34,825 bases of DNA from NCBI GenBank assembly GCA_017477465.1, contig JAFUVU010000004.1:1-34825 (forward strand). The letters run 5' to 3'. Both the position numbers and the translations under genes were made by a program. Under the pieces are notes generated by a model, which was not told the DNA's origin, ran no database searches, and worked only from the letters and a program-made list of their open reading frames with translations. This DNA comes from Bacteroidales bacterium (GTDB taxonomy: Bacteria > Bacteroidota > Bacteroidia > Bacteroidales > UBA932). Shown here piece by piece: positions 2,371-31,338 of the stretch (position 1 is its first letter; every line of letters begins with the position of its first letter).

Positions 2371-2391
2371 TAAAGGCTTGGCTTAGTCCTG

Positions 2392-3611: not shown

Positions 3612-3616
3612 TAACG

Positions 3617-3700: not shown

Positions 3701-3713
3701 GAGATGGGGGCCT

Positions 3714-14581: not shown

Positions 14582-15958
14582 TTATTTTACGTTTATATTG
14601 TTTACGAACTCGTTGACCGTGAGGTCTTTCTGCGTGACGGGCCGGCCGTCGATGGAAACATTCTCCAGAGTGACATTCTCTACCCTGTGATCTGCGTCAT
14701 ATCCCAGCATCTGAATAACCGGATGCACCACGCGGCGGGCATCCACGTTCTGAATGAGAACCCCGTCGATGTGGCCACGCTCGCTGCTGGAACTCCAGAC
14801 AGCCTTGTTTATCCACATGGAAATGAGCTGGTTGCTCTCTTCGATGCGGAGGTTCCGGAACACGATTCCCGACACGCGGGCCTGGTCGCAGTGATACACG
14901 CGTATGCTCCATTCGCGGCCCTTGTCGTGGATTATGTCGTTGTCTTCGAACACGACGCCAGTAATATCCTTCACAATCTCCGCCCCTACGCTCACTGCAT
15001 GGGCCACTTCATTCCAGAGGACATTGCCGTAAGCGTGGACGTTTTCGGTGGGGCCGCCGCCTTGGGTGGTCTTCACCACGATAAGGTCGTCCAGAGTGCG
15101 GATGAAGCAGTTACGCACTATGACATTCCGGCTGTTGCAGATATCCACGCCGTCGGAATTGGCCCTGTAGCCAAGGATCTTGACGCCGTTGATATCCACG
15201 TTCTCGCTGTTTTTCACGGGAAGCGTCCACACGCTGGCGTCCCTTAGGATAATGCCCTCGATGGAGATGTTTTTGCCGTTGACGAACAGGAGGTTAGTTG
15301 AGAGGGTTTCACAGAGCGAACCGTCCACGATTCCCCTACCGCGCACCTTTATATTATCGCCGATGAGGGAAATCACAGGAGAATAGGCCCCGCCTTTCTC
15401 ACGCTGGAACATCTCCCCGTAGAGGACGGCGCCTGGAGCCAGATACAAGGTCTGTCCGGAGCGCACCACGATACGGGAAACAGTATGCTCGCCGGGACCG
15501 TAGTAGATGACATTCGGGTCATCGGCACTATAGACTTCCGTTTCCGGGGCATTTGCGAAAATGTGCAGCGAGTGGTACTCGTCGCCGTCGATTTCCACGG
15601 TAAGCCTGTCGCCGGGACGGGCTTCGAAGCGCAGCTCCTTCCCCTTGATTTCTGGAACGATACCCCTTGAATAAGGCAAAACCTTGGCACTGCCGATATT
15701 ATGCCGCACCTTCACAGTTACACATGTCGGCTCCTCAATGTCGAAGGAGCAGAAAGCCGCCATCTCGAATATTGCGGCCGATCCCTTCTTGTCGTCCATC
15801 CCCCTCATCCTGAGAAGGCTGTCCTTGGGGGATACCTTCAAAGGATAGACGGTGGCCTTTTTCTTGCCGTAGCGCACCTGGAAGGGCACTTTGGGCGCCG
15901 CCTCAAGCGAAAACGCGAGGCATGCCAGAAGCAGTATGGATAATACTTTTCTCATCAC
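14582..15958 (-). CDS. Secreted parallel beta-helix glycosidase-like protein (GH28/GH49-type fold)
   Basis: A 458-residue protein with a signal peptide (about 1-20). Residues about 25-140 look like a beta-sandwich, and from about 145 a right-handed beta-helix starts (GEHTVSRIVVRSGQTLYLAPGAVLYG). GH28-type acidic residues are present with correct spacing: NSDG (267-270) and TLDD (288-291). The GH28 GHG histidine and the RIK motif are missing; the corresponding stretches read AVSVGAE and SIRVYH. It is therefore a divergent relative, closer in architecture to dextranase/isopullulanase-like (GH49) or unassigned helix enzymes than to true polygalacturonases. The start overlaps the preceding FAD oxidoreductase gene by 4 bp. 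Substrate and even hydrolase activity are uncertain. Confidence 0.75.
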   Translation of the reverse strand: MMRKVLSILLLACLAFSLEAAPKVPFQVRYGKKKATVYPLKVSPKDSLLRMRGMDDKKGSAAIFEMAAFCSFDIEEPTCVTVKVRHNIGSAKVLPYSRGIVPEIKGKELRFEARPGDRLTVEIDGDEYHSLHIFANAPETEVYSADDPNVIYYGPGEHTVSRIVVRSGQTLYLAPGAVLYGEMFQREKGGAYSPVISLIGDNIKVRGRGIVDGSLCETLSTNLLFVNGKNISIEGIILRDASVWTLPVKNSENVDINGVKILGYRANSDGVDICNSRNVIVRNCFIRTLDDLIVVKTTQGGGPTENVHAYGNVLWNEVAHAVSVGAEIVKDITGVVFEDNDIIHDKGREWSIRVYHCDQARVSGIVFRNLRIEESNQLISMWINKAVWSSSSERGHIDGVLIQNVDARRVVHPVIQMLGYDADHRVENVTLENVSIDGRPVTQKDLTVNEFVNNINVK

Positions 15959-17940
15959 TTTTTGATAAAGCGCACGCCGTCAACCACAACCACGCCGCCT
16001 TCCCCCTTGTTGGTGAAAGTGACCTTGATGGGCTTCTTGGGATCGTGCGAATAAGTTCCAAGGCTGTACCAGATGCCTTCAACCTTACCGCGCACCGTCA
16101 TGTCAACCGGGCATTTGTGATTGCCTTTCTTGTCGGACACCGTGATATCGGCCGATTTTACGCGGTTGTCGCTGGCGGAGTACATAATCTGCACCTCGTA
16201 CTTGCCCTTTTCCAGGGTGGGGGCGAAGACGGCTTCCAGTTTCCCGTTCGGGGAAGTGGGAGCGAAACGGTAGTTGTACTTGAGAAAGGGTCCCTGGCTT
16301 GTGGAATGGGCCCACAGGTCTTCGTGGAGGCCAAGTTCGCTGTCGTCCATCACAACGCCTTCCAGACGGGCGGGGTCGATGAACATGTCGCCGGGAGTCT
16401 TGTACTTGATAATCTGTTTCTGGCTCTTCAGAAGGTCCTGGAGGGCTTTTACGTCCACATCCTGCACTGCGGTGCCGCCGGCGATGGCAAGAGCCGCAGC
16501 ATCGGCCGAAGCCTGGCCCAGCATCATGTACACGGGTTCCATCCTGAGGGAAGCCATAATCACATGCGAAGCACTTAAACATGTGGGAACCAGCAGGTTC
16601 TCGCACTGAGCCTTCTTAGGCGTAAGGCTCCTGTAAGGAATCTCGTAGGGCCGATAGGGAGTGTACGGGAAGTTTCCCTCCTCCACCAGATCGCCCTTGG
16701 GCGTAAGAATGGAAGACACCAGATGGCAGTCCAGGAAATACGAGCCGATAGCAACGGCGTCCTTCTTGGTGGGGTTCTCCCAGGCGTCCTGCTGCACCAT
16801 CACATATTCGCCCTTCATCCTGCGGCCTTCGCGGATGTAAAGCTGATAGGGCCAGTTGCCGTTGTCGGCAAACTCGTCCTTCGCCAGGCCGTAGCGGGCG
16901 ACGTCGGCCCTAAGGTCGGCGGGGACACGTTCGTCGTGGCTGAGGAACCAGAGCATGCCTTCCTGATACGTGCGGTGGTACTGGTCCAAGGCGTCGCGCA
17001 GCTCATAGGAGCCTTCGGGATAGTTCCAGGAACCGTTGATATGGTCCATGTGGTTAAGGTCGTACTTGCGGCCAGGCAGCGGATACAGGGTGAGAATCTG
17101 GCCGAAGCGGTGCGCCCCGCGGCGCCTGATCCTGTCAAGGACGCGGAGGTAGCGGTCGGCCTTGTAATTGTCGGGCCTGCGGAACGGCACCATGTTGTCC
17201 GGATTGTCCGTGACGGTGAGCCGATAGACATAGGCCTGGGTCTTGCCGTCGGCGGCGCCTTCCTTCTCCTTGTCGGCAAAAATCACGTCCAGGGGGAAGT
17301 AGGCGGCCATTTTACGGATTTCGGCAACCTCGGCGGGAGTGTAGTGGGCAAGGGCTTTGTACTCGCTCACGCCGGCGGAAAATTCGCCGTACTCCTCGCG
17401 GCTTTCACGGCCGACGATGTAATCCACGCCGGCCCATGCCATAAGGTCGCCTTCATAGCCTGCGTCGATGAAAATCTTGCCGCGGAACACCCGGCCGCTC
17501 TCGTCGGTCAGGGAAACTATGCGGCTCCCTTCCTTCTGGACGCCGCCGCTTTCCTTCATCCTGGTGTTCAGGAACACTTCCACGCCGGCTTCTTCCAGCC
17601 ATTTATTGAAAATGCCTTCGGCAACAGAGCATTCCAGGGAAATCTGCATCCTGTGCGGAGCGCCGTAATGGGCACCCACCTCCCTGAGGAAGTCGGCAGT
17701 ATAGCCGCCCACAGTTTTAGACCAGCCGATGTCAACATTGCCGATGCCACTGGTCGTGAGTCCGCCGACGTGGGCGGTCCTTTCCAGCAGAGCCACCTTC
17801 AGGCCTTGCCGTGCAGCGGTGACGGCGGCAATGACGCCGCCGGCGTTTCCGCTGTACACGACTACGTCGTAGTCGCCTGCCTTGGCCGATGCCCAGACAG
17901 CCGACAGCGATGCGATAAGGGTCAGAAGTAATCTTTTCAT
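15955..17940 (-). CDS. Secreted FAD-dependent oxidoreductase with golvesin/xanthan-lyase-type C-terminal domain
   Basis: A 661-residue protein with a Sec signal peptide (about 1-20). The FAD Rossmann motif is VVVYSGNAGG (26-35) with Glu53, followed by HVGGLTTSGIG. A second FAD contact is DAGYEGDLMAWAGV, and the C-terminal FAD segment lies near MASLRMEPVYMMLGQASA. About 140 further residues (520-661) form a beta-rich module with the pattern GKYEVQIMYSASDN and VVVDGVRFIKK. This matches golvesin/xanthan-lyase CBD-like domains, which is why relatives are often named xanthan lyase. The domain could bind carbohydrate. The gene abuts the preceding lipoprotein gene with no gap. The reaction is unknown; oxidation of a sugar in the periplasm is inference. 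Confidence 0.83.
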   Translation of the reverse strand: MKRLLLTLIASLSAVWASAKAGDYDVVVYSGNAGGVIAAVTAARQGLKVALLERTAHVGGLTTSGIGNVDIGWSKTVGGYTADFLREVGAHYGAPHRMQISLECSVAEGIFNKWLEEAGVEVFLNTRMKESGGVQKEGSRIVSLTDESGRVFRGKIFIDAGYEGDLMAWAGVDYIVGRESREEYGEFSAGVSEYKALAHYTPAEVAEIRKMAAYFPLDVIFADKEKEGAADGKTQAYVYRLTVTDNPDNMVPFRRPDNYKADRYLRVLDRIRRRGAHRFGQILTLYPLPGRKYDLNHMDHINGSWNYPEGSYELRDALDQYHRTYQEGMLWFLSHDERVPADLRADVARYGLAKDEFADNGNWPYQLYIREGRRMKGEYVMVQQDAWENPTKKDAVAIGSYFLDCHLVSSILTPKGDLVEEGNFPYTPYRPYEIPYRSLTPKKAQCENLLVPTCLSASHVIMASLRMEPVYMMLGQASADAAALAIAGGTAVQDVDVKALQDLLKSQKQIIKYKTPGDMFIDPARLEGVVMDDSELGLHEDLWAHSTSQGPFLKYNYRFAPTSPNGKLEAVFAPTLEKGKYEVQIMYSASDNRVKSADITVSDKKGNHKCPVDMTVRGKVEGIWYSLGTYSHDPKKPIKVTFTNKGEGGVVVVDGVRFIKK

Positions 17941-19608
17941 TTATTCAACCACTTGTGCTTTGATGGAAATCACTACGTAGCAGGGCTTGTCGTTAGGCAG
18001 GGCGTTCTGGCCAGTGAACGAGTCGCGGCTGCCTTCAATCCTCTCGAAGCGGGCTATGCCGGTGCTGGAGGGGCAGGTGCTCAGAGGGCCTGTCTTGAAG
18101 ACGAAGCAGTCGCCTACCTTGTAGTTGATCCAGTCGGCATTCACCTTGCCCTGGTTAAGGTAAGTCTGCAGGGCGGGAGCCGTAAGGTCTTCTACCGTAA
18201 CATTGTCAAAGTCAAAGGCATAAGCATTGGTGAGCTTCTTGATCAAGGTGGCGTTGCGGCCGGTCCAGTCGCTGCTGGCGGCGCTCATCACCGGGATTTC
18301 GGTGACGCCCGCGTTCACGTAGGTGAACCAGGAGGGATCCTGGCCGGCGCGGTCTTCGCTGGCACGCATCAGACGGGTTCCGTTGTCGGAAGCGCCGCCG
18401 TTGTTCCAGGCAAAGTAGAAGAAGTCGATGTTGCGGCGCTGGGCTGTATCCCAGAAGTCGAAGAGGCTGTAGGTTTTGAAATCGCGCACCGAGAAGAAGC
18501 AGTAGGATTCCACTCCGGGATACTCTTCCAGCACCAGCGGTTCCTTGGTGTTGCGCTGGGCGGCGATTACGATGTCGGCCCCGTAGCGCAGGTCCACGAA
18601 GGTGGGGATGCGGAAGGTAACCGTGTGGTTGAGCCTGTCGGTGGCCGTGAATGCCACTGCGTGGGCTGCCTTGTCAAAGCTTTCGAAGGTGTAGCTGTAA
18701 TCCACTTCGAAGTCGGCGGAAGCGTCGAAGTAGTCGATGGCGATGCGGTTGCTGACATCGGCCCCCTGTATGTCCTTGGTGAACTTCACCACTTCGATGT
18801 TGGAGAGGCCGGTTTCGGCCTTCACGGTGAAGCTGAAGGTCTTGGAGTCGGTGCTGCGGACCACCAGAGGGTCGGCGGTGATGCCATCGGCCGGGAAAAT
18901 CTCGGGCGCGGGGGCAGGGATATAGTTCACCGGGAGGGTTTCGATCTTCATCTTGCCGTTGGCGTCGGTGGCGCTCACCTGCAGGCCGCGGTAGCCTTCG
19001 AAGTAGTCTATCTCCTGCTCGAAGCTGTAGCTGCTTTCGCCGCTGTGGAAGGCGGGATTCAGGGGCACGTCCACGATGCCGTCGGCAGTGAACATGCTCA
19101 CTTTCACGCTCTCAAGGGTGTTGGAGGAGGTCACTTCGAATTTGGTAAGGACGGTGCTGGGGTCTTCGGCGCGCTCGTCAATCTTGATGATTTCCTTTTC
19201 GAAGACGATCACGGGAGCGGGCTGCACGGGGGTCACGTCCACGGGGATAATCGCCTCGGCAGTGCGGCCGGCCTTGTCTTTCGCAGTCACTTTGAGAGAG
19301 GTGATGTCCAGATTCCAGGAAGGGGTTTCCTTGAGGGAGTACTGATGCTCATCCTTGAATTCGGTTATTTCCTTGAGGAGGGTTTCCTCTCCGGATTCCG
19401 TCTTATAGAGTTTTACGCTTTCCAGACCGGCTTCCGAGAACACGACGCACACGACGGGGGTGTTGTCCACCCTGTTAAGGTCGGGGTTGATGGTCTCGTA
19501 CATCAGCTCGATGCTGGGCTCGGCCATTAAGGAGTAGTCGGGGCCTTTCTTGTCGCAGGCGGTAAGGGCCAGGAGCACGGCGGCCAGGGAGAATATTATC
19601 TTTTTCAT
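17941..19608 (-). CDS. Ig-like surface lipoprotein, SusE/SusF position
   Basis: A 555-residue lipoprotein with a lipobox ending at Cys18 (LALTAC). The first about 330 residues contain several Ig/bacterial-Ig-like repeats with the phrases LESVKLYK, LESVKVSMF and LSNIEVVKF, and recurring endings such as LKVTAKDKAG, LQVSATDANG and VAFTATDRLN. This indicates three tandem modules. The last about 200 residues form a different beta-rich domain. No catalytic motif is visible. Genes placed after SusC/SusD and encoding such proteins are usually surface glycan-binding proteins. Its position two genes after SusD fits that role. It follows the FAS1 gene by 12 bp. Confidence 0.7.
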   Translation of the reverse strand: MKKIIFSLAAVLLALTACDKKGPDYSLMAEPSIELMYETINPDLNRVDNTPVVCVVFSEAGLESVKLYKTESGEETLLKEITEFKDEHQYSLKETPSWNLDITSLKVTAKDKAGRTAEAIIPVDVTPVQPAPVIVFEKEIIKIDERAEDPSTVLTKFEVTSSNTLESVKVSMFTADGIVDVPLNPAFHSGESSYSFEQEIDYFEGYRGLQVSATDANGKMKIETLPVNYIPAPAPEIFPADGITADPLVVRSTDSKTFSFTVKAETGLSNIEVVKFTKDIQGADVSNRIAIDYFDASADFEVDYSYTFESFDKAAHAVAFTATDRLNHTVTFRIPTFVDLRYGADIVIAAQRNTKEPLVLEEYPGVESYCFFSVRDFKTYSLFDFWDTAQRRNIDFFYFAWNNGGASDNGTRLMRASEDRAGQDPSWFTYVNAGVTEIPVMSAASSDWTGRNATLIKKLTNAYAFDFDNVTVEDLTAPALQTYLNQGKVNADWINYKVGDCFVFKTGPLSTCPSSTGIARFERIEGSRDSFTGQNALPNDKPCYVVISIKAQVVE

Positions 19609-19620: not shown

Positions 19621-20265
19621 TTAATAGGGTGTAACATCCGAATAGGTTTTCCGGAACATCGCATAGTCATTCATGATATGGATGACGCCGTTGGTGGGCA
19701 GGATGTTGGAAGCGACGGAACTGGAGCGGCGGCTGTTGAAGTTGCTGCCTTTCTCGTTGGCCACGATATTGCCGTTGGCAATGGGGAAGCCGATGGAGTT
19801 GGAGGACGACTTGTTCACCTTGAGGGTCATAAGGCCCCACTCCCCTTCCAGCAGGGTTTTCACGTAGATGGGCTCCACGGGAAGTTTCTGGTTTAGGGAA
19901 TGGTATTCGCCCACTATCATGTGGTACTGGAGGAGGCGGGTAACCTCGTCCCTGTCGCAGTAGTAGATTTTCTCCACCTGGGCATGGGCCGTCTTGAAGT
20001 TCATGATGGCGTCGTTGTTCAGGAAGAGGTAGGTTATGGTGCGGTCGGTCTGCGTGTAGTAGTCCTGCATCCCGGTGTATTCCACTGCCTCAACCATTTC
20101 GGAAAGGTCGTCGCGGGAGTTCATGTACTCCCAGGCGTTCATCCCGACATGGGGATCCAGCGGGCTGCTCTCGTACTTGTAGTCGGTCTGCAGCTTGAAG
20201 TTCTGGCAGGCGCCAAGCATAAGGAGGCTCAGCGCTGCGATGGCTATGTTTTTAACTTTTTTCAT
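19621..20265 (-). CDS. Fasciclin (FAS1) domain lipoprotein
   Basis: A 214-residue protein starting MKKVKNIAIAAL, with a lipobox ending at Cys20 (LMLGAC). The reading frame is open further upstream, to 20307, but that extension would overlap SusD and mask the signal peptide, so the start at 20265 (13 bp after SusD) is preferred. One FAS1 domain covers about 34-212: the AWEYMNSRDDLSEMVEAVEYTGMQ-like start of the fold, a TYLFLNNDA H1-like motif, the YHMI segment, and NGVIHIMNDY at the end. FAS1 domains mediate cell-surface adhesion and sugar or protein contacts. Beside SusC/SusD it may be an extra surface-exposed glycan-capture protein. The ligand is unknown. Confidence 0.78.
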   Translation of the reverse strand: MKKVKNIAIAALSLLMLGACQNFKLQTDYKYESSPLDPHVGMNAWEYMNSRDDLSEMVEAVEYTGMQDYYTQTDRTITYLFLNNDAIMNFKTAHAQVEKIYYCDRDEVTRLLQYHMIVGEYHSLNQKLPVEPIYVKTLLEGEWGLMTLKVNKSSSNSIGFPIANGNIVANEKGSNFNSRRSSSVASNILPTNGVIHIMNDYAMFRKTYSDVTPY

Positions 20266-20278
20266 GGTCGGCGCTCTG

Positions 20279-21778
20279 TTAATAACCGGGATTCTGCTGG
20301 TAGGCACCCTGGCAAAGATTGATGACGGACTGGTGGATGGGGAAGAGTTCCTCGTTCTCGCTGGACAGGCCGTTGATGGGGCCCATCACATCCACCACGC
20401 GGTGGTTGCGGACAAGGTCGAACCAGCGTTTTCCTTCGCCCACCTGCTCTATCTGCTTCTGGTCCAGGATGTAGTCGATAAGCTCGTCACGGGTGGCGAA
20501 ATCGGACACGTTGGGAAGGGTGGAGGCCACTCCGGCTCTCTGGAGGACGAACTGGACAAGGTTCAGGGCATCCTGCCATTTGTCCAGCCTGGCTTTCACC
20601 TCGGCCTGCATCAGGAGGACGTCGGTGTAACGGTAAACAGGGTAGGCCACCTGGCAGTTGATGTAGTCCTGATATTTGACGGAAGTGCCGTCGGCCATAT
20701 ATTTATGCACCTGATAGGTTTCGGCGCTGCTCTTGGAAGGGCAGAGGTAAGTGGCCATGCGCTTGTCGATGGGAGCGCGGGCGGCGGCCTTCTCGTAAAC
20801 CTGCTGAAGCTTGGGCGACAGCACGACGGTGGAACCCTGTCCCATGCCGCATCCGAGGATGCTCCAGATCATGGAGAAGTTGCTAAGGCCGGCCTCGTTG
20901 ATATTGTGGTGAATCACGAAGATGAACTCGTTGGGACCGCCGTATTCGTCCACCTGGGGGTTGTTGTCGGAGGACTTGTTGTTAAGGCCGTTCACGAAGC
21001 TGTTTTTCAGGTCGGCAAGGTCGCTCTGGAACACTACGCTGGAGTTGCGGATAGCGGCATCCGGGCTTCCGTTGGCCGACATGAAGCGGTCGATGGTGGC
21101 GTCGGCGGCTTCCCACTCGCCCAGCCACATCTGTGCATCGGCCAGGATGGCGTATATGGCATTGCGGCTGATGCGCTTGCGCTCGATATTGGAAGGGTCG
21201 ATGAGGCTTTCGGCAAGCTCCAGATCGGGGATTATTACGTCGCGGAGGACTTCCTCCTTGGGCGTGCGGCCTTTCACCTCGGCATTGGCCAGGTTGTCAA
21301 CCGGGCTCAGATACACAGGTACGTCGCCCCACACGCGCACTGCATAGAAATAGCAGAGGGCGCGCATTGCATAGGCCTGGGCAAGGTAGTCGTTCTTTAG
21401 GGTCTGGTCGGTGATATTGGCGTCCGGGATGTTCTGAATGGCGAAATTGGTGTTGCTTATCACCTTGTACAGGCTGGTCCAGTTGGTGGACGGCAGGTCG
21501 GTAGTCATCTGGTTAAGGATGAGCTTGCCGTACTCGGAGGGCAGTTCCTGATAGAGGACAAAGTTGTCGGAGCGCATCTCGCCCCAGCAGAACCAGTTGG
21601 TTCTAAGGGCAGTGCGGAACGAAGAGTAAATCTCTGCTATACCGGCGTTTACGTCTCTCTGGTTTTGCCACATCTCACCGGCGGGAATCTCACTGATGGG
21701 ATCCACGTTGAGCATGCTGCAGGAAAGAAGCGTTGCGCCAAGAACTGAGAGAACGGATATTTTTACAGTATTTTTCAT
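20279..21778 (-). CDS. susD-like: SusD/RagB-family surface glycan-binding lipoprotein
   Basis: SusD proteins sit on the outer surface, lid the SusC transporter and bind the glycan. This 499-residue lipoprotein has a lipobox at Cys20 (TLLSC) and the typical N-terminal pattern NVDPISEIPAGEMWQNQRDV. TPR-like helices follow (for example YAMRALCYFYAVRVWGDVPV), and the C-terminal family segment holds YRYTDVLLMQAEVKARL and the terminal GKRWFDLVRN. The gene starts 6 bp after SusC. The length is average for the family. The ligand cannot be predicted. Confidence 0.95.
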   Translation of the reverse strand: MKNTVKISVLSVLGATLLSCSMLNVDPISEIPAGEMWQNQRDVNAGIAEIYSSFRTALRTNWFCWGEMRSDNFVLYQELPSEYGKLILNQMTTDLPSTNWTSLYKVISNTNFAIQNIPDANITDQTLKNDYLAQAYAMRALCYFYAVRVWGDVPVYLSPVDNLANAEVKGRTPKEEVLRDVIIPDLELAESLIDPSNIERKRISRNAIYAILADAQMWLGEWEAADATIDRFMSANGSPDAAIRNSSVVFQSDLADLKNSFVNGLNNKSSDNNPQVDEYGGPNEFIFVIHHNINEAGLSNFSMIWSILGCGMGQGSTVVLSPKLQQVYEKAAARAPIDKRMATYLCPSKSSAETYQVHKYMADGTSVKYQDYINCQVAYPVYRYTDVLLMQAEVKARLDKWQDALNLVQFVLQRAGVASTLPNVSDFATRDELIDYILDQKQIEQVGEGKRWFDLVRNHRVVDVMGPINGLSSENEELFPIHQSVINLCQGAYQQNPGY

Positions 21779-21784: not shown

Positions 21785-24700
21785 CTACAGATTGAGCGTG
21801 AAACCAAGGCCGAACTCACGGTTGCGGGGGAAACGGTTGGTATCCATACCGATGGAGAGGGCGCTGTAATTGGAGAATTCGGGGTCGTAACCGCTGTAGG
21901 CGGTGAAGGTGAGCGGGTTGGTGCAGAAGGCATACAGGCTCAAACCCTTGAGGCCGAGCTTCTGGACCACCTGGGGCTTGAAGCGGTAAGTGAGACGGAC
22001 GTTCTTGATCTTGAGGAAGGAACCGTCTTCGATGTAGCGGGAGTTGACCGCACGGTCGTTCTGGAAACTGTCGGCAAACGGACGGGGATAATCCACCTCG
22101 TCACCCTGTCTCACCCAGAAATTGTCCACCCAGCCGATGGTGGGAGTGGTGGACCAGGCCGACATGGAGTTGCGGTCCTGGTTGTAGCGTGCGAAGTTGT
22201 AGATTTTTCCGCCGACGGAGAAGTAGGAAGCTGCTGTGAGGAAGAACTGCTTGTAGCGGAAGGTAAGGCTGAGACCGCCGCTGATGAAGGGCTGCGCATT
22301 GCCAAGGATCATGCGGTCCTGGTCGTTGATTACGCCGTCCTGATGTTCGGGATTCTCGCCCCAGTTGATGTCGCCGCCGCGGAACGGAACGCCGCTGGGA
22401 AGGGTTTTCTGCTTGACTTCCCCGTCGTAAACGGCGCCGTTAAGAGTGTAGTGGCTGAAGCTGCCGCCTTCGAAGACGGGGGTCAGCTGCTCCCAGTCGG
22501 GGGTGAAGGCATTGGACTCGTTGTAAGGGAAAACGCCGAGGAACTGGTATCCGTAGAAGTCGCCCAGGGGACGGTTCTCGGAGATGAACCAGTTGTCGCT
22601 GTGGATGTAACCGGTATGATTTGCAAGTTCCACCACCTTGTTGCGGCTGTAGGTGAGGTTGGCGTCGATGTGCAGATAATAGTTGCGCTTGTTGAGGAAG
22701 GTGCCTTTGAAAGCCACCTCGACACCCTGGTTGTCAATGGAGCCGATGTTCTTGCGGACAGTGTTGAAACCCCATTCCTTGGGAATCTCGTAATTGGCAA
22801 GGAGGTTGTCGGTGAACTTGTCGAAGTAATCCACGGTGAGCTGATATCGGCCCGACAGGAAGCTGAGGTCGGCACCTACGTTGAACTGGCGGGTGCGCTC
22901 CCAGCCAAGGTCGTTGACGGCTATGCGTGAAGCGGTTACGCCGGCAACGCCGTCATAGATGCCGCCGATGGCGTAGCTCAGCTGGGAATCGAAATCGCCG
23001 ATGGCTTCGTTACCGGTGATACCGTAGCTGACGCGGAGCTTGGCGTCGGAAAGCTTGATTCCACGCTTGATCGCACGCATGAATTTCTCGTCGGAAAGGC
23101 GCCATGCTGCCGATACGGAAGGGAAGAAACCCACCTTCTTGTCGGGGGCGAAACGGGAGGAACCGTCGGCACGGACATTGGCGGAGAAGATGTAGCGGGA
23201 CTTGTAATTATAGGTAAAACGCGCGAAGCCGGAGACCATGCTGTGCCGCGTCTCGGTGGAACCGGTGGCGGTGAGGTCGAAGTTGGCGGCGAAGGCGTTC
23301 ATGGTGTACACGGCATCGGTGGCGGAATCCTGGCCCTTGAAATAGTCCAGGTTGGTGCGCCAGCTCTGGAGAGAGAAGCCGGCCATGGCCTGGAAGTTAT
23401 GGACGTCGTTAACTGAATAATTGAAATTCAGGTAGTTCTCGTTCATAAGGTCGAAGGTCATGGTGTTGCGCTGCTGGCCGTTGTTGTGCAGGTACTGGTC
23501 GCTGAGGGCGGTGGGGCGCATGTAGGTGTAACGCACCAGGCCGAAGTTGGCGTTCAGGTTGGAGGTCCACTTCAGGTATTTGTTGAAGTTGAGGTCGGCA
23601 AACTGGAACAGCGACATGCGGAAGTACTCGTTGAAGTTGGTCTGCAGGTTCGCGGCAAGCGGGCTCATTCCCCAAAGCGTGCCGATGAGGGTGCCGTCGG
23701 GGTAATACAGGCTCAGGGTAGGCTTGCGGGAGAGGATGCTGTTGAGGTAGCCGGCCTCCTCCACGCCGTCCTTGCGGGCATAGCTGGCGTTTATCTTGGT
23801 TCCCAGGGAGAGCACCTTGTTGGCCGTATAGTCGGCGTTGAGACGGATGGAGGCGCGCTGGAAATCGGTGTTGCGGATAATGCCCTGCTCGTTGTAGTAG
23901 CCGCCCATCAGCATGTATTTCAGCTGTTTGCTGGCGCCGCCGAAGCTCAGGTCAACCTGGTCCTTGTTGGCCATGCGATAGGCTATCTTCTGATAGTCGT
24001 TGTCGTTGTTCAGGAGAGCGTTGTAAGGGTCGCCCAGCTGGGAGTTGAGGATGTTGATAACCGCCTGGGACACCATTCCGTCACCCTCGCCCATTGCATA
24101 GTCCAGATATCCGTGCTGCATGGCGCGGTACTGGTTGGCGTTGATCTGCGGCAGCTTGTGGGTAAGGCTGGCGAAGGAGTGCTGGTAGCGCACCTCCAGG
24201 ACGGGATTGCTCTCGTTACCTCTTTTAGTAGTGACCAGGATGACACCGTTTGCGGAACGGGAGCCGTAAATTGCTGCCGATGCCGCATCCTTCAGGACCT
24301 CGATGGACTCGATGTCGTAAGGGTTAAGCTGGTCGATGTCTGTGCTGGGGACGCCGTCCACAACCCACAGGGGGCCTACGCCGGCATCGTTCATGGTGGA
24401 AGTACCGCGGATGATGACCGAGGAGCCTTCACCGGGCTGGCCGGAACCGGAAGTGACCTGCACACCCGCGGCAGTGCCCTGCAGCACGTCGTAGATATTG
24501 GTAGGCATCTTGTTCTCGATGTCTTCCTTCGTCACTGACACGATGGAACCGGTGATGTCACGCTTTTTGGTGGTACCGTAGCCGATGACCACGGTCTCGT
24601 CCAGGACGTCGGAAGCGTCTTCCATTTCCACGTCCAGGCGATCATTCACGCCGGCAATGCGGTCGACGTCCTTGTAACCCATGAAACGGAACTGGAGGAT

Positions 24701-24952
24701 ATCGTCCGGTCCGGTAACGCGGATGGAATAGTTGCCTTCGGCGTCGGTGACAACACCTTGTTTGGTCTTGGTGTTAAGAACAGTGGCGCCGGGAAGAGGC
24801 CCCGGGAAGGGCTCGCCCGCAGTCACGGTACCGGTGAGGGTACGGGCGCCGGTTTTCTGGGCATAAGCTTCCACGGCGGATGCCGACAGCAGCAGCGCCG
24901 TCAGCATCAGCAGGGAAAGCAACCTGCCCCAGAGGGTTGGTTTTGTGTTCAT
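21785..24952 (-). CDS. susC-like: SusC/RagA-family TonB-dependent outer-membrane transporter
   Basis: A 1055-residue TonB-dependent receptor importing oligosaccharides into the periplasm with energy from TonB-ExbBD. It has a signal peptide (about 1-31), a carboxypeptidase-regulatory-like domain (about 36-112), a SusC TonB box region (DETVVIGYG, 118-126), a plug (about 130-240, containing the family pattern IEVLKDAASAAIYGSR), and a long beta-barrel ending in the aromatic-rich GLGFTLNL. There is no N-terminal STN domain, so it is not a classical anti-sigma-coupled transducer. It lies 9 bp after the CotH gene and 6 bp before SusD. Confidence 0.97.
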   Translation of the reverse strand: MNTKPTLWGRLLSLLMLTALLLSASAVEAYAQKTGARTLTGTVTAGEPFPGPLPGATVLNTKTKQGVVTDAEGNYSIRVTGPDDILQFRFMGYKDVDRIAGVNDRLDVEMEDASDVLDETVVIGYGTTKKRDITGSIVSVTKEDIENKMPTNIYDVLQGTAAGVQVTSGSGQPGEGSSVIIRGTSTMNDAGVGPLWVVDGVPSTDIDQLNPYDIESIEVLKDAASAAIYGSRSANGVILVTTKRGNESNPVLEVRYQHSFASLTHKLPQINANQYRAMQHGYLDYAMGEGDGMVSQAVINILNSQLGDPYNALLNNDNDYQKIAYRMANKDQVDLSFGGASKQLKYMLMGGYYNEQGIIRNTDFQRASIRLNADYTANKVLSLGTKINASYARKDGVEEAGYLNSILSRKPTLSLYYPDGTLIGTLWGMSPLAANLQTNFNEYFRMSLFQFADLNFNKYLKWTSNLNANFGLVRYTYMRPTALSDQYLHNNGQQRNTMTFDLMNENYLNFNYSVNDVHNFQAMAGFSLQSWRTNLDYFKGQDSATDAVYTMNAFAANFDLTATGSTETRHSMVSGFARFTYNYKSRYIFSANVRADGSSRFAPDKKVGFFPSVSAAWRLSDEKFMRAIKRGIKLSDAKLRVSYGITGNEAIGDFDSQLSYAIGGIYDGVAGVTASRIAVNDLGWERTRQFNVGADLSFLSGRYQLTVDYFDKFTDNLLANYEIPKEWGFNTVRKNIGSIDNQGVEVAFKGTFLNKRNYYLHIDANLTYSRNKVVELANHTGYIHSDNWFISENRPLGDFYGYQFLGVFPYNESNAFTPDWEQLTPVFEGGSFSHYTLNGAVYDGEVKQKTLPSGVPFRGGDINWGENPEHQDGVINDQDRMILGNAQPFISGGLSLTFRYKQFFLTAASYFSVGGKIYNFARYNQDRNSMSAWSTTPTIGWVDNFWVRQGDEVDYPRPFADSFQNDRAVNSRYIEDGSFLKIKNVRLTYRFKPQVVQKLGLKGLSLYAFCTNPLTFTAYSGYDPEFSNYSALSIGMDTNRFPRNREFGLGFTLNL

Positions 24953-24961: not shown

Positions 24962-26566
24962 TTAATAAGTGTTCATTATTTCATTGTCCAGCCAGGTGTA
25001 TTTTTCCTGATAGGCCCGCTTGAGCCGGGCCACGGCGGCGGTATAGCTCAGGTCCACATCTTTGTTGGTGGTGCGGTCGATGGGCCACATCTTTATGTTG
25101 ATGGCATCCGAAGCGGCCAGGGAGGCTGCCAGGGCGTCGATATAGGCGGGGATAGTGGTAAGGGACTCACGGTAGCGCGTCCAGCGCTGCTTTACCAGAG
25201 AGCGGAAAGCGCTGTCGCGGCGGATGCGGTTCATGTAGAAGCGCGGTCCCGTGCAGTCGTAGTTGTAATTGCCGCCGGAGGTGTATTCAGCAGGGATGAA
25301 AGTGCCCCAGTCGAAGTCCCACACCGGGCCGGCGGTGAGAACGCCGCCAGGCTCTTTGGAGATGTAGATGCTCTTTGGCTGGTTCACGTCGCCGTTGCGG
25401 GCAAGTTCGTTGGCAAGCCACCAATCGGCAAAGGAGTTGGAGTCTATGAAGTTGCGGTATTCGCGGGCGGCAAAGCGCTCGTCGTCGTAAAGGGCCGATT
25501 CAAAGTTGTTTACGTATTCCTGCATGGAGGCGACGTCGGCATCTGTCACCTCGTCGGGGTCTTTGAACTGCCAGGGCACATTGTTTATTGCCGAGCGGAA
25601 CTTGAAGGACTCGTCGAACCACTCGTCAACCTCCATCAGGAAGCCCTGGTCCGACAGGTTCACGCGGTTTTTATCCACTTTCACCTGCTCGCAAAGGTAG
25701 TAGTTGCCGTTGTGCTTTCCGTTAAGCATCAGTTCCACGAACTCTCCGGAGGGGGTCCAGGCCAGGTCGGTCTTTCTGGCAATCTCGAAGGCCACGGCGT
25801 TGCGGATGAGGGTGCGGTCCATCCAGTTGGCGAGGAGGCACCAGCGCTTGTGCTTTGCCATGCCAAGAATCTCAGCCTTGGAGTCCAGTTTAAGGGCATA
25901 GGGTTTCTTGGGAAACTGCGTCCAGGTACTGTTGCCGCGGCCTTTCACGCTGGTCGTGCCTTCGTAATCCAGCGTTCCGTCGGCCTTGAAGATGCGGACT
26001 GTGGATTCCGCTATCCAGTCGTCCTTGCTGACGATGGGCTGCGCCTGAGGGGTGTCCAGGAAAACGACGGGCAGGCCGGTGGCAGGGCCCTCGAAGGCGT
26101 GGGACACTACCTCGAAAGCGTCGGAGCGGACCTGATGGATGCGGCCACGGCTGTCTTCCCTGGCATAGACCAGGACCACCCGCTCGCTATAGAAGCCTTT
26201 GCTTTTGCTGTCGGCAAGGCTTGCCGTAAAATCGCTGCCGACGTGGCTGATGCCGGTGAGGGTAAAACCTGCCGGCGTTCCTCCGGTGCTGCCTTCCAGA
26301 CGGATGAATCCTGACATCTCCTCCTCCGACAGTCCTTCAAGGGCCGATTCCGGCGTCACTTGGAAATTCAGCGTGAGGGAAGAGCCCCAGGAAAGTTCGG
26401 CCTGGCCGTTGATGGAGACGGTGACAGAACGCGGCATTGCGGGGACTTCCACCTCCGGCAAAACCGGCTCGGCGGGATCAGATTCACCAGGCTTGGTGCA
26501 GGCGGCCGAAAGAACCGCTGCAAATGCAAGAAGGGATAAAAACTTTGATGAAATGTGGCCAGTCAT
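24962..26566 (-). CDS. CotH-type (spore coat kinase-like) lipoprotein
   Basis: A 534-residue lipoprotein with a lipobox at Cys23 (LSAAC). Residues about 40-160 look like a beta-sandwich. The CotH kinase-like domain (PF08757) covers about 165-530, with KGRGNSTW (208-215), which resembles the ATP-contacting motif, and GPVWDFDW (413-420), the metal-binding aspartates. CotH proteins in Bacillus are atypical protein kinases that phosphorylate coat proteins; in Bacteroidetes their substrate is unknown. It is the first gene of the SusCD operon, 9 bp before SusC, and starts 18 bp after a TATATTTG promoter box. Extracellular phosphorylation of a surface protein or glycan is inference. Confidence 0.85.
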   Translation of the reverse strand: MTGHISSKFLSLLAFAAVLSAACTKPGESDPAEPVLPEVEVPAMPRSVTVSINGQAELSWGSSLTLNFQVTPESALEGLSEEEMSGFIRLEGSTGGTPAGFTLTGISHVGSDFTASLADSKSKGFYSERVVLVYAREDSRGRIHQVRSDAFEVVSHAFEGPATGLPVVFLDTPQAQPIVSKDDWIAESTVRIFKADGTLDYEGTTSVKGRGNSTWTQFPKKPYALKLDSKAEILGMAKHKRWCLLANWMDRTLIRNAVAFEIARKTDLAWTPSGEFVELMLNGKHNGNYYLCEQVKVDKNRVNLSDQGFLMEVDEWFDESFKFRSAINNVPWQFKDPDEVTDADVASMQEYVNNFESALYDDERFAAREYRNFIDSNSFADWWLANELARNGDVNQPKSIYISKEPGGVLTAGPVWDFDWGTFIPAEYTSGGNYNYDCTGPRFYMNRIRRDSAFRSLVKQRWTRYRESLTTIPAYIDALAASLAASDAINIKMWPIDRTTNKDVDLSYTAAVARLKRAYQEKYTWLDNEIMNTY

Positions 26567-26583: not shown

Positions 26584-26591
26584 CAAATATA
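26584..26591 (-). promoter_or_regulatory. Probable -7 box of the PUL operon
   Basis: The minus strand reads TATATTTG, a full match to TAnnTTTG, 18 bp before the CotH start codon. No TTTG lies 19-21 bp further upstream; GTTG is only 15 bp away. A good -7 with a poor -33 is the arrangement expected for an activator-dependent PUL promoter. A 70-bp intergenic region separates this operon from the regulator gene. Confidence 0.6.
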
Positions 26592-26601
26592 CGCGCGTGC
26601 A

Positions 26602-26629
26602 ATTAACAACGGGATTAACGGAACAATTA
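26602..26629. promoter_or_regulatory. Phased ATTA repeats upstream of the PUL promoter (possible operator)
   Basis: ATTA occurs at 26602, 26614 and 26626, exactly 12 bp apart. The first and third are preceded by CA (CAATTA, period 24), and the first two continue as ATTAAC. They lie just upstream of the -7 box on the minus strand. SARP activators are known to bind direct repeats one helical turn apart next to the -10, so this could be the regulator's site. The region is A+T-rich and chance is not excluded. Confidence 0.3.
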
Positions 26630-26636
26630 TTAAAAA

Positions 26637-29063
26637 TTATTTTTTAACAAAATCCTTGAAATCCTGGCCGAAAGGCTCGCCCATTATCCTGCCGAACTCT
26701 TCCGTGAAACGGGTGAACACATTCTGGGCCGATCCCAGCTTTTTCTGCTCAATGAGGGCGCCGCACTTGAGGCGGATTGCCTCCTCGTCCAGGGAATCGA
26801 AGAGGAGGGCGGCATCGGCAAGCCTGATGGCGGTGTCGGGAGAAAGGGCTTCGTCGCGGTGCTTTTCCAACTCGCCAAGCACAAGGTTGGCGTAATCGGC
26901 CTTGAAGCTGTCAAGATAGTCTTCCTGAAGATCGGGGAGAAGGGGGCCTTCCTCGGCAAGGGTCAGCAGCTGGTCCAACGGCAGTTGGTGCTGCATGGCG
27001 GAGAAGGCCTGGAGGTAATCGCAGAGTCCGTTCGCATCGGTCACTTTCCACTGGCCGTTTTCGGAAACTATGTCTATGGGGCCGACCTGCTCCAGCGCAG
27101 TGCGGATTTTCTTCATGGTGACGCCGCGGTTGTTGTTGTAGCTTTCGTCCGACTTGTCGCTCCACAGGAGGCTCTTAAGTCTGGCATTGGAGATGCCGCC
27201 GGACTCCGCGGTGTGAAGGATGAGAATCATAAATAGGCGCTGGGCCTGGGGCGGGATGGATGCCGTGATGTCCTGCCCCTTTTCGTCCCTTACACGGAAA
27301 GCGCCCAGAAGCTGCACTCCGGGGCCGTTTTCGGGCCTTGCTGCGGGCTGCCAGACGGGTTGGGGTTCCTCCCTGCGCTTTCTGAGAAGCAGCCACAGCG
27401 CTGCGGCCAGGACGGCCACCCCTGCAAGGAGCAGCCACCACCATGCAAACGCCTGATCCTTAGGGATAACCGCCGGTTCCAGCACCGGGGAGCCCAGCAT
27501 GTAAACGCTTACGCGGAAGATGCCGTCGGCCCCTTTGCAGGAGATGGAGGCTATGTAGTTCTCCCCTTCCGCGTCGTACATAAGGCGGGCTTCCGACTCT
27601 ATGTCAAGGAAGGGATAGGGTATGCTGGAGCCAAGTTCCTCGGAGCCGCCGTCCCGCACGGAGAACCTGCGCAGCTGGAGGGCCGATTCGAAGACTTCGG
27701 GGTCGTATGTCAGGGTAAGTAGGCTGTCGCCTGCGAAGAGAAGGTCGTGGGCAGGGACTTCCTTTTCCATCACGGGGCTTTTCCACAGGCGGGAGACGGT
27801 GCCGTCGGCAAGGTTAAGGGAGAAAAAGTCGCTCCATACTCTTGTGCCTAGCTCCTGGATGCCCACTTCGTTGCCTTTTCCGCCGAGGACATAGACCAGG
27901 CCGTCCTTGTAGCCGGCGGCTGCAAGATAACGGGGGAAAACGCCCGGAAGATCCAGTTCCTCAGCTTTTTCCATGCCCAAATGCCATAGCCGGGCGCTTT
28001 TCTGATAACGGTAGTGGCCGTAGCCGAAAAGGTAGATGTAGCTGCTGTCGGCAGGGATGTACAGGGTGTTGTGATGCAGATACTGGGAGCTGCGGACGCG
28101 GGGGTTGTCGGCCTCCCATTCGCCGCGAGAGGCATCGTAACGGATTGGCCTTGAGACATCGTCCCCGTCCACATAGGCAAGGGTGCCGTCCGGGAGGATT
28201 ACGAGGTCGTTGACAGCGAGGCCAAGCTTCATCTTATGCTTGGGATAGCCCGTGAACGCCTTGCCGCTGCGGATATCGTACGAGAGCACCTTCCCCTCCG
28301 ACACAAACCAGATGCGCTTACGCAGCGTGTCCTGGCAGATATAGGATACCGAAGGCATTTCCGCCGTCCACACTTTACGCCATTCACGGTTGTAGTTCTG
28401 CAGCCAAACAGGGTTTGAAATCTGGGCCGACAGACGCTTTCCGCTCTTGAACTCGGTCTCTCCTTCCAGGGGCCAGAAGCTTGGACCATGGGAATCAGCC
28501 CTTATACGTAAGTTCTTGACTATCATTGGGGCGACGTCCGTGGAGGGGCTGCGGCCAGCATCGCCCCTGCCGAAGCTGACGGCCCCGTTGTGGCGCGGAA
28601 GCGACGTCTGGCTGCGATATACCTCCTGCCCGTTCACAAGCGCACGGAGGATGCCGTTTTTGCTTTCCACGACTATGCGGATATTCTGCCAGCCGGACAG
28701 TACAGCGTCTCCGGATCTGAGGGTGAGGATGTAGCGGTGGTCGCCGGTGGCGCCGAGGAATGTGGGCCCGCCCCAAGGGGTGGAAAGCAGCAGGTCCAGA
28801 GGGTCGTTATTGTCTATGAACAGGCGGCACACATAGCCGAAACGGCCGCGGGAGAGCTCCAGGCGAAGGTCGAAGCTTACTGATAGCGAGTCTTTGAAGG
28901 GGATGAGCTCGCCTGAAGAAGGGATGTCCAGGGAGGTGCGAAGGTCCGGCACTACCTCGTAGGAACGGAAAAAGAGGCCTTCCTCCACTTTGGCGGAAAG
29001 CTGCAGAGTCAAAAAAAGCAGGCACAGGGCCAGCCCTATTTTCCTTTTTACGGACATCTTCAT
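26637..29063 (-). CDS. Transmembrane one-component regulator: LamG-like + kelch-like propeller + TM + SARP-type winged helix + BTAD-like
   Basis: This 808-residue protein has a signal peptide (1-24), a concanavalin/LamG-like domain (about 30-190) and a kelch-like beta-propeller (about 230-530; blades such as LVYVLGGKGNEVGIQELGT). One membrane helix follows (about 540-560, LLLAGVAVLAAALWLLL then RKRR). The cytoplasmic part starts with an OmpR/SARP-type winged helix (about 583-675: VQLLGAFRVRD, then ISNARLKSLLWSD, then GVTMKKIRTAL, then NGQWKV), followed by a helical BTAD/TPR-like region to the end. This is the domain order of a SARP activator fused to a periplasmic sensor. No kinase or receiver domain is present. 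It lies next to the PUL and is divergent from the GH92-MFS operon. The frame is open upstream to 29108, but the start at 29063 gives a proper signal peptide (29057 is also possible). Confidence 0.8.
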   Translation of the reverse strand: MKMSVKRKIGLALCLLFLTLQLSAKVEEGLFFRSYEVVPDLRTSLDIPSSGELIPFKDSLSVSFDLRLELSRGRFGYVCRLFIDNNDPLDLLLSTPWGGPTFLGATGDHRYILTLRSGDAVLSGWQNIRIVVESKNGILRALVNGQEVYRSQTSLPRHNGAVSFGRGDAGRSPSTDVAPMIVKNLRIRADSHGPSFWPLEGETEFKSGKRLSAQISNPVWLQNYNREWRKVWTAEMPSVSYICQDTLRKRIWFVSEGKVLSYDIRSGKAFTGYPKHKMKLGLAVNDLVILPDGTLAYVDGDDVSRPIRYDASRGEWEADNPRVRSSQYLHHNTLYIPADSSYIYLFGYGHYRYQKSARLWHLGMEKAEELDLPGVFPRYLAAAGYKDGLVYVLGGKGNEVGIQELGTRVWSDFFSLNLADGTVSRLWKSPVMEKEVPAHDLLFAGDSLLTLTYDPEVFESALQLRRFSVRDGGSEELGSSIPYPFLDIESEARLMYDAEGENYIASISCKGADGIFRVSVYMLGSPVLEPAVIPKDQAFAWWWLLLAGVAVLAAALWLLLRKRREEPQPVWQPAARPENGPGVQLLGAFRVRDEKGQDITASIPPQAQRLFMILILHTAESGGISNARLKSLLWSDKSDESYNNNRGVTMKKIRTALEQVGPIDIVSENGQWKVTDANGLCDYLQAFSAMQHQLPLDQLLTLAEEGPLLPDLQEDYLDSFKADYANLVLGELEKHRDEALSPDTAIRLADAALLFDSLDEEAIRLKCGALIEQKKLGSAQNVFTRFTEEFGRIMGEPFGQDFKDFVKK

Positions 29064-29075
29064 TCCTTGGGTTTT

Positions 29076-29166: not shown

Positions 29167-31338
29167 ATGTCCCGTACAGCTTCCTGCGCAGTCTTGATTT
29201 CCGTTTTATTAGCCGCTTCATGCCAAAGAGGGAAAGAGCCTGTGGATTATGTAAACCCGTATATGGGCAACATCAGCCATCTGCTGGTCCCCACCTTTCC
29301 CACCGTCCAGCTCCCGGGCTCGATGCTCCGCATTTATCCTGAAAGGAGCGACTACACCTCGGAACTTCTGAACGGACTGCCGCTGGTAGTCACCAACCAC
29401 AGGGAAAAATCGGCCTTCAAACTGTCCGTCAAGCAAGGGGACAGTTGCCAGCCGGTATATCCGGTAAGCTATGACAATGAGCACCTTACCCCCTACTCCT
29501 GGGACGTAAGCATCGCCGACGGAAGCGTGGATGTGAGCTTTGCGCCTTCGCACCAGAGCGCCATATATAAACTGTCAGGGAATGAGCCGCTTACCCTTGT
29601 AATCGCCAGCCTTTGCGGGGATATATCGGCCGACGGAAACCTCATAAAGGGCAGGCAGAAGGTGAGCGGGGAAACCACCGTTTACCTGTGCCTGGAAAGC
29701 GCCCAGGAGCCCAAGACCCTCCGTACGGTTAAGACTGAGGAAGGCAGCTATGCCATTCTGGGCTACGCGGAAAGCACCGTGAACCTGCGCTACGGCGTTT
29801 CCTTCATCGGCGAAGACCAGGCCGAGGCCAACCTCCGCCGTGAACTCAGCCACTACAGCGTGGAAAAACTTGCCGCCGCCGGGCGCCGCGAATGGAACCG
29901 CGTGCTTTCCCGCATCAAGGTAAAAGGCGGCTCCGAGGACGATAAAACCGTCTTTTACACATCCTGGTACCGCTGTTTCGAGCGCCCCGTCTGCCTTAGC
30001 GAAGACGGCCGGTACTGGAGCGCCTGGGACAACGCCGTCCACAGCGACGAAGGCACGCCCTTCTACACGGACGACTGGCTCTGGGACACTTACCGGGCCA
30101 CCCATCCGCTGCGCATAATCACGGATCCCGCCACCGAAGAGGCCATCCTGGCATCCTTCATCCGAATGGCCGATCAAGGCAACGGCTGGATGCCCACCTT
30201 CCCCGAAATAAGCGGAGACACCCGCCGCATGAACTCCAACCACACCGTCGCCACCTTTGCCGATGCTGCAGTAAAGGGCCTTCACCTGGACCTGGACGCC
30301 GCCCTACAGAGCGCATATAAATGCCTGACGGAGAAAACATTGGCTCCTTGGTCCGACGCCCCGGCCGGCGCCCTGGACCGCTTCTTCTGGGAAAACGGAT
30401 ACTATCCCGCCCTCCCCCAGGGCGAGGCGGAAAGCGACCCCACGGTTGACAGTTTCGAAAGGCGGCAAAGCGTGGCCGTAACCCTTGGCACCGCCTACGA
30501 CTGCTGGTGCCTTTCGCGGCTGGCTTCTGCCGCCGGGAAAGACAGCCTGGCGCAGGAATACCTGGAAAAATCGCGCCGCTACGCTACTCTTTTCAATCCC
30601 GAGACGGGATTTTTCCACCCGAAGGACAAGGACGGGAACTTTATCCCGGACATCGATTACAACTTTCCTCCCGGGCTTGGCGCCAGGGACTATTACGACG
30701 AGAACAACGCCTGGATTTACCGCTGGGACGTTCAGCATGACATCCCCGGTCTTGTCGCCATGCAGGGCGGTCCCGAGGCCTTCTGCGTAGCCTTGGACAG
30801 CATGTTTGCAACGCCTCTCGGACGCAGCAAATTCGAGTTTTTCTCCCGCCTGCCGGACCATAGCGGCAACATCGGCCAGTTTTCTATGGCCAACGAGCCT
30901 TCGCTGCATATTCCCTACCTGTACAACTATGCCGGCGCTCCCTGGAAAACGCAGAAACGCATCCGCCAGATGCTGCGCACATGGTTCCGCAACGACCTCA
31001 TGGGTGTCCCCGGCGACGAGGACGGCGGCGGCATGTCGGCCTTCGTGGTGTTCTCTTCCCTGGGCCTTTATCCCGTCACTCCCGGGCTGGCGGAATACAG
31101 TATCGGCAGCCCTCTTTTTGAAGAGGCCTCCATACAGCTTCCTAACGGTAAACGCTTCACTGTGAAGGCCCCGGGCGCCAGTGCCGATGCAAAATACATC
31201 CAAAGCGCCGCCCTCAACGGCGAGGCGCTGGACAGGCCCTTCCTCTCACACAGCCAGCTGATGGCCGGCGGGGAACTGCGGCTGCAGATGGGCACACGGC
31301 CCAACTTTAGCTGGGGCCGTAGCGACGAGTCTGAATAA
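29167..31338 (+). CDS. GH92 alpha-mannosidase-like lipoprotein (second copy)
   Basis: A 723-residue GH92 protein starting MSRTASCAV with a lipobox at Cys19 (LAASC). The frame is open further upstream, to 28990, but that extension runs through the divergent promoters and lacks a signal. The catalytic-acid motif is ANEPSLH (Glu577) and the base region is GDEDGGGMSAF (616-626), at the same spacing as in the other GH92 but with different residues (ANEPSLH for GNEPSHH, GDEDGGG for GNDDCGQ). This suggests a different GH92 subgroup and linkage preference. It is separated from the first MFS gene by 50 bp and probably co-transcribed with it. It is a surface or periplasmic enzyme. Confidence 0.9.
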   Translation: MSRTASCAVLISVLLAASCQRGKEPVDYVNPYMGNISHLLVPTFPTVQLPGSMLRIYPERSDYTSELLNGLPLVVTNHREKSAFKLSVKQGDSCQPVYPVSYDNEHLTPYSWDVSIADGSVDVSFAPSHQSAIYKLSGNEPLTLVIASLCGDISADGNLIKGRQKVSGETTVYLCLESAQEPKTLRTVKTEEGSYAILGYAESTVNLRYGVSFIGEDQAEANLRRELSHYSVEKLAAAGRREWNRVLSRIKVKGGSEDDKTVFYTSWYRCFERPVCLSEDGRYWSAWDNAVHSDEGTPFYTDDWLWDTYRATHPLRIITDPATEEAILASFIRMADQGNGWMPTFPEISGDTRRMNSNHTVATFADAAVKGLHLDLDAALQSAYKCLTEKTLAPWSDAPAGALDRFFWENGYYPALPQGEAESDPTVDSFERRQSVAVTLGTAYDCWCLSRLASAAGKDSLAQEYLEKSRRYATLFNPETGFFHPKDKDGNFIPDIDYNFPPGLGARDYYDENNAWIYRWDVQHDIPGLVAMQGGPEAFCVALDSMFATPLGRSKFEFFSRLPDHSGNIGQFSMANEPSLHIPYLYNYAGAPWKTQKRIRQMLRTWFRNDLMGVPGDEDGGGMSAFVVFSSLGLYPVTPGLAEYSIGSPLFEEASIQLPNGKRFTVKAPGASADAKYIQSAALNGEALDRPFLSHSQLMAGGELRLQMGTRPNFSWGRSDESE

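Follow-up and report, generated by a model that had tools for sequence, protein, structure and literature searches.

How is a polysaccharide utilization locus (PUL) controlled when the usual kinds of regulator are missing beside it? The question is raised by a 34,825-nucleotide stretch from a Bacteroidales bacterium (assembly GCA_017477465.1, contig JAFUVU010000004.1, positions 1 to 34,825), the whole of which is called the window, where a minus-strand gene at 26637-29063 lies next to an operon with SusC- and SusD-like genes. A preliminary description, made from the sequence of the window, had proposed that this gene encodes a membrane-bound PUL regulator of the SARP (Streptomyces antibiotic regulatory protein) type, combining in one polypeptide a signal peptide, a LamG-like domain, a propeller, one transmembrane (TM) helix, a SARP winged helix and BTAD-like helices. 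We consider it highly probable that the protein is a one-component transmembrane transcription activator of the PUL, which senses through a kelch propeller and acts through a SARP domain at a predicted operator. Its parts are the following (all on the minus strand; residues refer to the 823-amino-acid (aa) frame):

26637..29063, minus: gene of the predicted membrane-tethered SARP regulator, 808 aa from M16; the longest open reading frame (ORF) extends to 29108
28989..29063, minus: signal peptide or N-terminal hydrophobic helix, about residues 16-40 (Kyte-Doolittle segment 24-42, modelled helix 20-36)
28416..28976, minus: N-terminal beta-sandwich, about residues 45-231, strands in the model; LamG label unconfirmed
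27474..28397, minus: kelch beta-propeller, presumed periplasmic sensor, residues 238-545
27381..27455, minus: single TM helix followed by RKRR, residues 552-576 (Kyte-Doolittle and model)
27036..27320, minus: OmpR/SARP-type winged helix, residues 597-691 (model)
26643..27020, minus: BTAD-like helical domain, residues 697-822 (model; Pfam in relatives)

The ORF spans 26637-29108 (823 aa) and 29063 is the probable start. Because the window protein alone matched nothing informative, giving only weak membrane-anchor matches in Pfam, NCBIfam and phmmer (PDB sequences) searches and no Pfam BTAD or DNA-binding domain, a family of relatives was built. A single-protein search of the genome contig collection returned no relatives; they were found by patterns from a 7-row alignment, an 11-row alignment being too diverse for patterns. 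The phylum set consists of the best 80 of 131 relatives found among 150 candidate stretches, with hosts that include Bacteroides, Dysgonomonas, Alistipes, Sphingobacterium, Chitinophaga and Algoriphagus; the ORF measures 789-911 aa in each of the 80, two being cut by the locus end. Loci of relatives are labelled L### and whole genomes G###.

The SARP/BTAD fold of the cytoplasmic part is supported by its structural model (pLDDT 94.5), which contains an OmpR-type winged helix and a BTAD and aligns end to end with the SARPs AfsR and EmbR, the only matches at E <= 0.001 in a Foldseek search of the PDB. Prediction of this C-terminal part had been set beforehand as a test of the proposal, and the winged helix is present in the model. 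Among 79 relatives, Pfam recognises BTAD in 13 (best 3.9e-6) and Trans_reg_C in two. One could instead see here a surface protein of kelch type whose cytoplasmic tail is TPR-like and which has no regulatory role, as the lack of a Pfam DNA-binding domain in the window protein and the TPR-type chains matched in the PDB sequences by the C-terminal profile might suggest; against the modelled fold, the domains detected in relatives and the linked operator described below, this is barely credible.

On the other side of the membrane, the propeller is seen in the model and kelch repeats are recognised by Pfam in the sensors of 28 of 30 family members, though not in that of the window protein. The beta-sandwich is likewise modelled; the LamG label given in the preliminary description found no Pfam match in any of the 30. 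Computation predicts a single-helix membrane topology, with a low-confidence linker (residues 578-589, pLDDT < 50) joining the TM helix to the SARP domain. The proposed succession of signal peptide, propeller, TM helix, winged helix and BTAD is borne out by Kyte-Doolittle analysis, model and Foldseek.

None of the established regulator types accounts for such a protein. ToxR and CadC have the opposite domain order: in the window protein a signal peptide and the sensor come first, and the winged helix and BTAD make up the C-terminal end. SusR, the Bacteroides starch regulator, is also a membrane one-component protein beside a PUL, with a periplasmic sensor and a cytoplasmic DNA-binding domain (PMC3878776; here and below, PMC articles are cited from the portions available to us). 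The topology itself is therefore not new; what is new is the SARP output and its operator. Homology to SusR was rejected: SusR of a B. faecis genome, identified by synteny with susA-F, is a DUF6377 protein that is dissimilar in sequence (profile E 6.6, BLASTP E 1.9), and predicted SusR sites pair two boxes at a distance of 67 or 77 bp (PMC3878776), unlike the three boxes 11-12 bp apart found here. Hybrid two-component systems (HTCS) similarly join a large periplasmic sensor and a DNA-binding domain in one polypeptide, often beside SusCD (PMC3878776), but a Pfam scan of the window protein detected neither a kinase nor a receiver nor an AraC domain. No extracytoplasmic function (ECF) sigma factor, FecR-like gene or SusC STN domain was seen among the 20 window proteins scanned. 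BT2628, of the B. thetaiotaomicron mannan locus, was considered as a possible family member and set aside, as PMC3878776 lists it as an HTCS.

In the window the predicted site for the protein and the predicted promoter box are:

26600..26630, minus: predicted operator driving the minus-strand PUL operon, three 7-bp boxes (26600-26606, 26612-26618, 26624-26630) with a 12-bp period
26584..26591, minus: TATATTTG (TAnnTTTG), the predicted -7 box of the promoter, separated by 8 bp from the proximal operator box upstream of it

They occupy the 70-bp gap between the regulator and the CotH gene that heads the CotH-SusC-SusD operon. With a matrix trained without the window, position 26600 is the best site in its 34.8 kb (13.3; next 8.7), and one other site of that score (13.4) occurs in 364.5 kb of the organism's own genome. 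When the gap was shuffled 20000 times, 77 shuffles reached the window score, and in one of them an exact -7 box also followed after 8-9 nt. In a tree of 39 sequences the window protein groups with L019, L020/L002, L003 and L018 (support 1.0); in L019, L020 and L003 the regulator is followed by three boxes with a 12-bp period and then, after 8 nt, by TAGCTTTG, TAAATTTG or TACCTTTG. The phylum matrix gives L003, on which it was not trained, 14.6, the best in 4.5 kb, and L020 only 6.5; L018 (as L123) has no matrix site >= 14.

A pattern for this clade was written from the sites of the window, L019, L020 and L003, so its matches there are by construction. In the own genome it matches twice, at the window and at C62:36598, the latter taken as chance. 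In 20 relatives' genomes it matches twice in G041, five times in G081, the two relatives that carry the clade regulator, and once in the other 18 (~41 Mb, rounded sizes); the reversed pattern gives 0, 0 and 5. One of the G041 matches is new and marks the opposite end of the regulator's PUL, at a distance of 21 kb (~1 kb between stretches unread). The gene downstream of it matches GDSL below threshold and has two GH92 genes as neighbours. The new match again shows three boxes of 12-bp period 8 nt before TAATTTTG, and the phylum matrix, untrained on it, scores it 15.0, best in 16 kb (next 7.3). Four of the five G081 matches are away from its regulator; they may mark additional targets of a regulator of the L003 type, or be chance matches in a genome that is incomplete.

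The same kind of site recurs across the phylum. Of 75 regulator genes, 29 have exact 6-mer direct repeats spaced 11 apart in their upstream 400 bp, vs 7.5 in shuffles, GGGTTA being the commonest. In the predicted operator a 7-bp box of TTAAYCC type is directly repeated three times, with a period of 11-12 bp; its three-box matrix, trained on the gaps of the 80 loci, reads GGATTAA-GGGTTAA-GGGTTAA, the boxes being spaced mostly by 12 and 11. Five-fold cross-validation places a held-out site >= 13 in the gaps of 60/80 loci vs 3.8 for Markov shuffles and 1.4 for equal-length genic segments, and one >= 18 in 59/80 vs 0.4 and 0.0. At a score >= 15 the matrix yields 73 sites in 61 loci, 72 intergenic and one genic, with intergenic bases at 8.7%; since training saw gaps only, the cross-validation is the fairer figure. 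Of 11 extra, untrained loci (ten full-length; L136 with a 387-aa frame) seven have a site >= 14 and L123, L124, L126 and L134 have none.

Which gene does the site serve? Sixty-two of the 73 sites adjoin the regulator gene, and the sites as a whole lie on the strand opposite to the downstream gene, at a median of 86 bp from its mechanically called start (quartiles 73, 122; n=68). The gene that the site precedes is a member of one of the main PUL clusters in 60/73, the regulator being divergent in 46 and co-directional, with the site behind it, in 10. These figures show that the site goes with the PUL operon and not with the regulator gene. It could be argued that the repeats serve autoregulation only, with the PUL under some other control, since in divergent loci the site is upstream of the regulator too (65 to 715 bp) and one L065 site points at it. 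This is very improbable given the ten sites behind a co-directional regulator and before a PUL gene (L029, L062, L063, L071, L072, L078, L079, L082, L095 and others), the like placement in the window and L019, the -7 box on the PUL side, and the extra sites before second PUL genes (L046, L063, L049, L075, L094, and 21 kb away in G041). The part of the proposed PUL control that can be computed, an operator of SARP geometry before the neighbouring PUL operon, is thus predicted both in the window and across the phylum.

TAnnTTTG is the -7 element of the Bacteroides primary sigma factor (PMC7366714). Measured from the operator box nearest the PUL, a match to TAnnTTTG (<= 1 mismatch) begins after 8 nt in 21/69 sites and after 9 nt in 19/69, vs 0-6 at other offsets; these 40/69 mostly have one mismatch, exact boxes numbering four at 8-9 nt and four at 20 nt. 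This -7 box lies on the PUL side of the operator, and 8-nt spacing with an exact box is seen in the window, L019, L020 and L003. SARP sites of Streptomyces are described as direct repeats with a spacing of 11 or 22 bp, the 3' one lying 8 bp from the -10 element (PMC10936776), and some have three heptamers (PMC10972967). The predicted period and -7 distance equal those described for SARPs, the family of the regulator's own modelled DNA-binding domain (PMC10936776). Many loci (L019-L098 sites) also have, ahead of the three direct repeats, an inverted GG.TA (GGTTAAT-like) element, ~50 bp upstream as counted from the end of the proximal box; it may hold a further protomer.

This agreement bears on whether the operator belongs to another transcription factor, the kelch protein being a neighbour with no role at that DNA. 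Adjacency is not binding, TTAA-rich boxes are simple, 20/80 loci have no site, and a HAMP-type histidine kinase gene lies near some Sphingobacterium loci. The whole genomes speak otherwise. GATTAA-N5-GGGTTAA has 17 matches in 20 genomes, vs seven for the reversed control. The regulator's operator accounts for 14 of the 17, spread over 14 genomes, and three lie elsewhere (six of the 20 have no exact match). The clade pattern likewise follows the clade regulator (seven matches vs one, reversed 0 and 5), and period and -7 distance are those of SARPs (PMC10936776). We regard ownership by another factor as improbable. On the regulator's far side, the kinase gene (L086:14447-15802 and three other Sphingobacterium loci) forms part of a conserved row.

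Linkage to glycan use was counted within six genes and flanks of up to 10 kb at the 80 regulator loci, families being assigned by a Pfam scan of one representative per cluster. SusC was counted by cluster, a 607-aa CarboxypepD_reg protein inflating the direct count. A SusD cluster lies near the regulator in 60/80 loci, SusC in 58/80 and either in 64/80; a GH76-like protein (~480 aa) in 52/80, GH92 in 24/80 and either in 68/80; a DUF3823 protein in 41/80. The suggested survey for the same architecture beside PULs was thus positive. GH76 is within 10 kb of the regulator in 24/29 genomes searched vs <= 0.67 expected by chance. Because of the GH76 and GH92 neighbours, this points to alpha-mannose glycans as the target of many members. 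No GH76 was seen in the window PUL, which has two GH92 and one GH97. A conserved 733-aa protein (L025:17442-19640, its cluster being present in 35 further loci, 36/80 in all) has no Pfam or NCBIfam family by its one representative, and its gene has an operator site upstream in five loci; it is a candidate new enzyme of alpha-mannose glycan use.

We infer the following course of events. The periplasmic beta-sandwich and propeller would sense the glycan imported by the neighbouring SusCD pair, and the signal would cross the single predicted membrane helix. The cytoplasmic SARP domain would then bind the three TTAAYCC-type repeats, 8-9 bp upstream of the TAnnTTTG-like box, and recruit RNA polymerase in place of the -33 contact, by analogy with Streptomyces SARPs at the -35. 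In the window the target would be the co-directional operon CotH-SusC-SusD-fasciclin-...-GH92, from 26566 to 6915. Alternatively, a ligand or stress might trigger cleavage near the membrane and free the SARP domain as a soluble activator. Characterised SARPs are soluble, and the low-confidence linker would offer a place to cut; the only peptidase-type match among the scanned window proteins is the Peptidase_S9 of the esterase-like 10990-11970 product, and the adjacency of 62/73 sites to the regulator gene fits a tethered factor while proving nothing. None of the results contradicts cleavage directly. Regulated proteolysis appears unlikely to us, and we prefer the intact, tethered activator.

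The genes around the regulator are:

24962..26566, minus: CotH-domain protein (PF08757, 3e-36), first gene of the predicted target operon
21785..24952, minus: SusC-like TonB-dependent transporter, no STN domain found
20279..21778, minus: SusD-like glycan-binding protein
19621..20307, minus: fasciclin-domain protein
17941..19608, minus: family-less operon protein, weak lipoprotein-signal matches only
15955..17940, minus: FAD-dependent oxidoreductase (FAD_oxidored, PF12831) with golvesin C domain
14582..15958, minus: GH28-like protein
13980..14570, minus: 196-aa protein, no family found
11967..13976, minus: GH97
10990..11970, minus: alpha/beta hydrolase, esterase-like, with a weaker Peptidase_S9 match
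9104..10990, minus: FAD-dependent oxidoreductase (FAD_oxidored, PF12831)
6915..9107, minus: GH92
29167..31338, plus: divergent GH92 gene, mechanical ORF listed from 28990
31389-33008 and 33013-34491, plus: two MFS transporters

The CotH protein has an ortholog of 62% identity in the same place in L019. Two FAD_oxidored proteins, the one at 15955-17940 with a golvesin domain and the one at 9104-10990, lie inside a glycan operon. Farther away (2371-3713), repeated CATTTT...TTTTTGACGGAACCG-like units flank on either side a gene (2700-3611) weakly matching REP-associated tyrosine transposases.

The output domain is not confined to kelch sensors. ORFs of 442-456 aa (L009-L012, L015) have the same TM helix and SARP domain behind a short unrelated N-terminal sensor, as would be expected if sensors, kelch or short, were swapped on one output domain. 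All five short-sensor loci of this type lack a site >= 14, though a TTAA triple spaced 12/11 lies upstream in the L011 locus (as L130). In a draw of 149 genomes from the family to which the window's organism belongs, 12 gave a match, its own genome included, four of them with short-sensor relatives only. In a 296-genome phylum draw the C-terminal profile reached E <= 1e-5 in 10 genomes. Six of these matches are strong (E <= 6.2e-41) and four weak, the weak four having TPR-like or receiver-like parts and no TM helix as read (partial genes). Distant SARP/BTAD-like proteins with such parts are seen at L113, L114, L115, L116 and L119, and soluble-looking SARPs seem to exist in Bacteroidota as well. 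The L016 protein (328-2046), as read, combines a kelch-like part, one TM helix and an HTH of AraC type, the same design with another output domain; its match to the window protein was confined to the TM helix.

The regulator resembles SARPs (AfsR, EmbR, ActII-ORF4, DnrI) in its modelled OmpR-type winged helix and BTAD and in its predicted operator, with direct repeats of 11-bp period, sometimes three, and the last 8 bp from the -10 box (PMC10936776, PMC10972967). It differs in its predicted inner-membrane anchor and periplasmic kelch sensor, in the TAnnTTTG promoter, in periods of 12 as well as 11, and in linkage to glycan utilization instead of antibiotic genes; the usual but not defining SARP traits, solubility and an actinomycete host, give way here to a TM helix and Bacteroidota hosts. 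The regulators named for Bacteroidetes PULs are SusR-like proteins, HTCS and ECF/anti-sigma systems (PMC3878776), and for hemicellulase genes HTCS, ECF/anti-sigma systems and catabolite repression (PMC10766802). As the preliminary description anticipated, no membrane-bound SARP or SARP-controlled PUL was found described in the literature searched, which leaves subscription journals mostly outside and includes the available portions of PMC10972967, PMC3878776 and PMC10766802.

It is likely that a further class of PUL regulators exists across Bacteroidota, made of inner-membrane SARP activators with a periplasmic glycan-sensing kelch propeller. They would act at sigma-ABfr promoters, sharing with actinomycete SARPs the period of the repeats and the 8-bp distance, replace the -33 contact and carry swappable sensors, kelch or short, on one output domain. 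The finding suggests that SARP promoter geometry extends beyond actinobacteria despite a different sigma factor and promoter. A distinct class with a base-precise predicted operator would be added to the known kinds, so that PUL regulation at many Bacteroidota loci would become assignable from sequence and directly testable.
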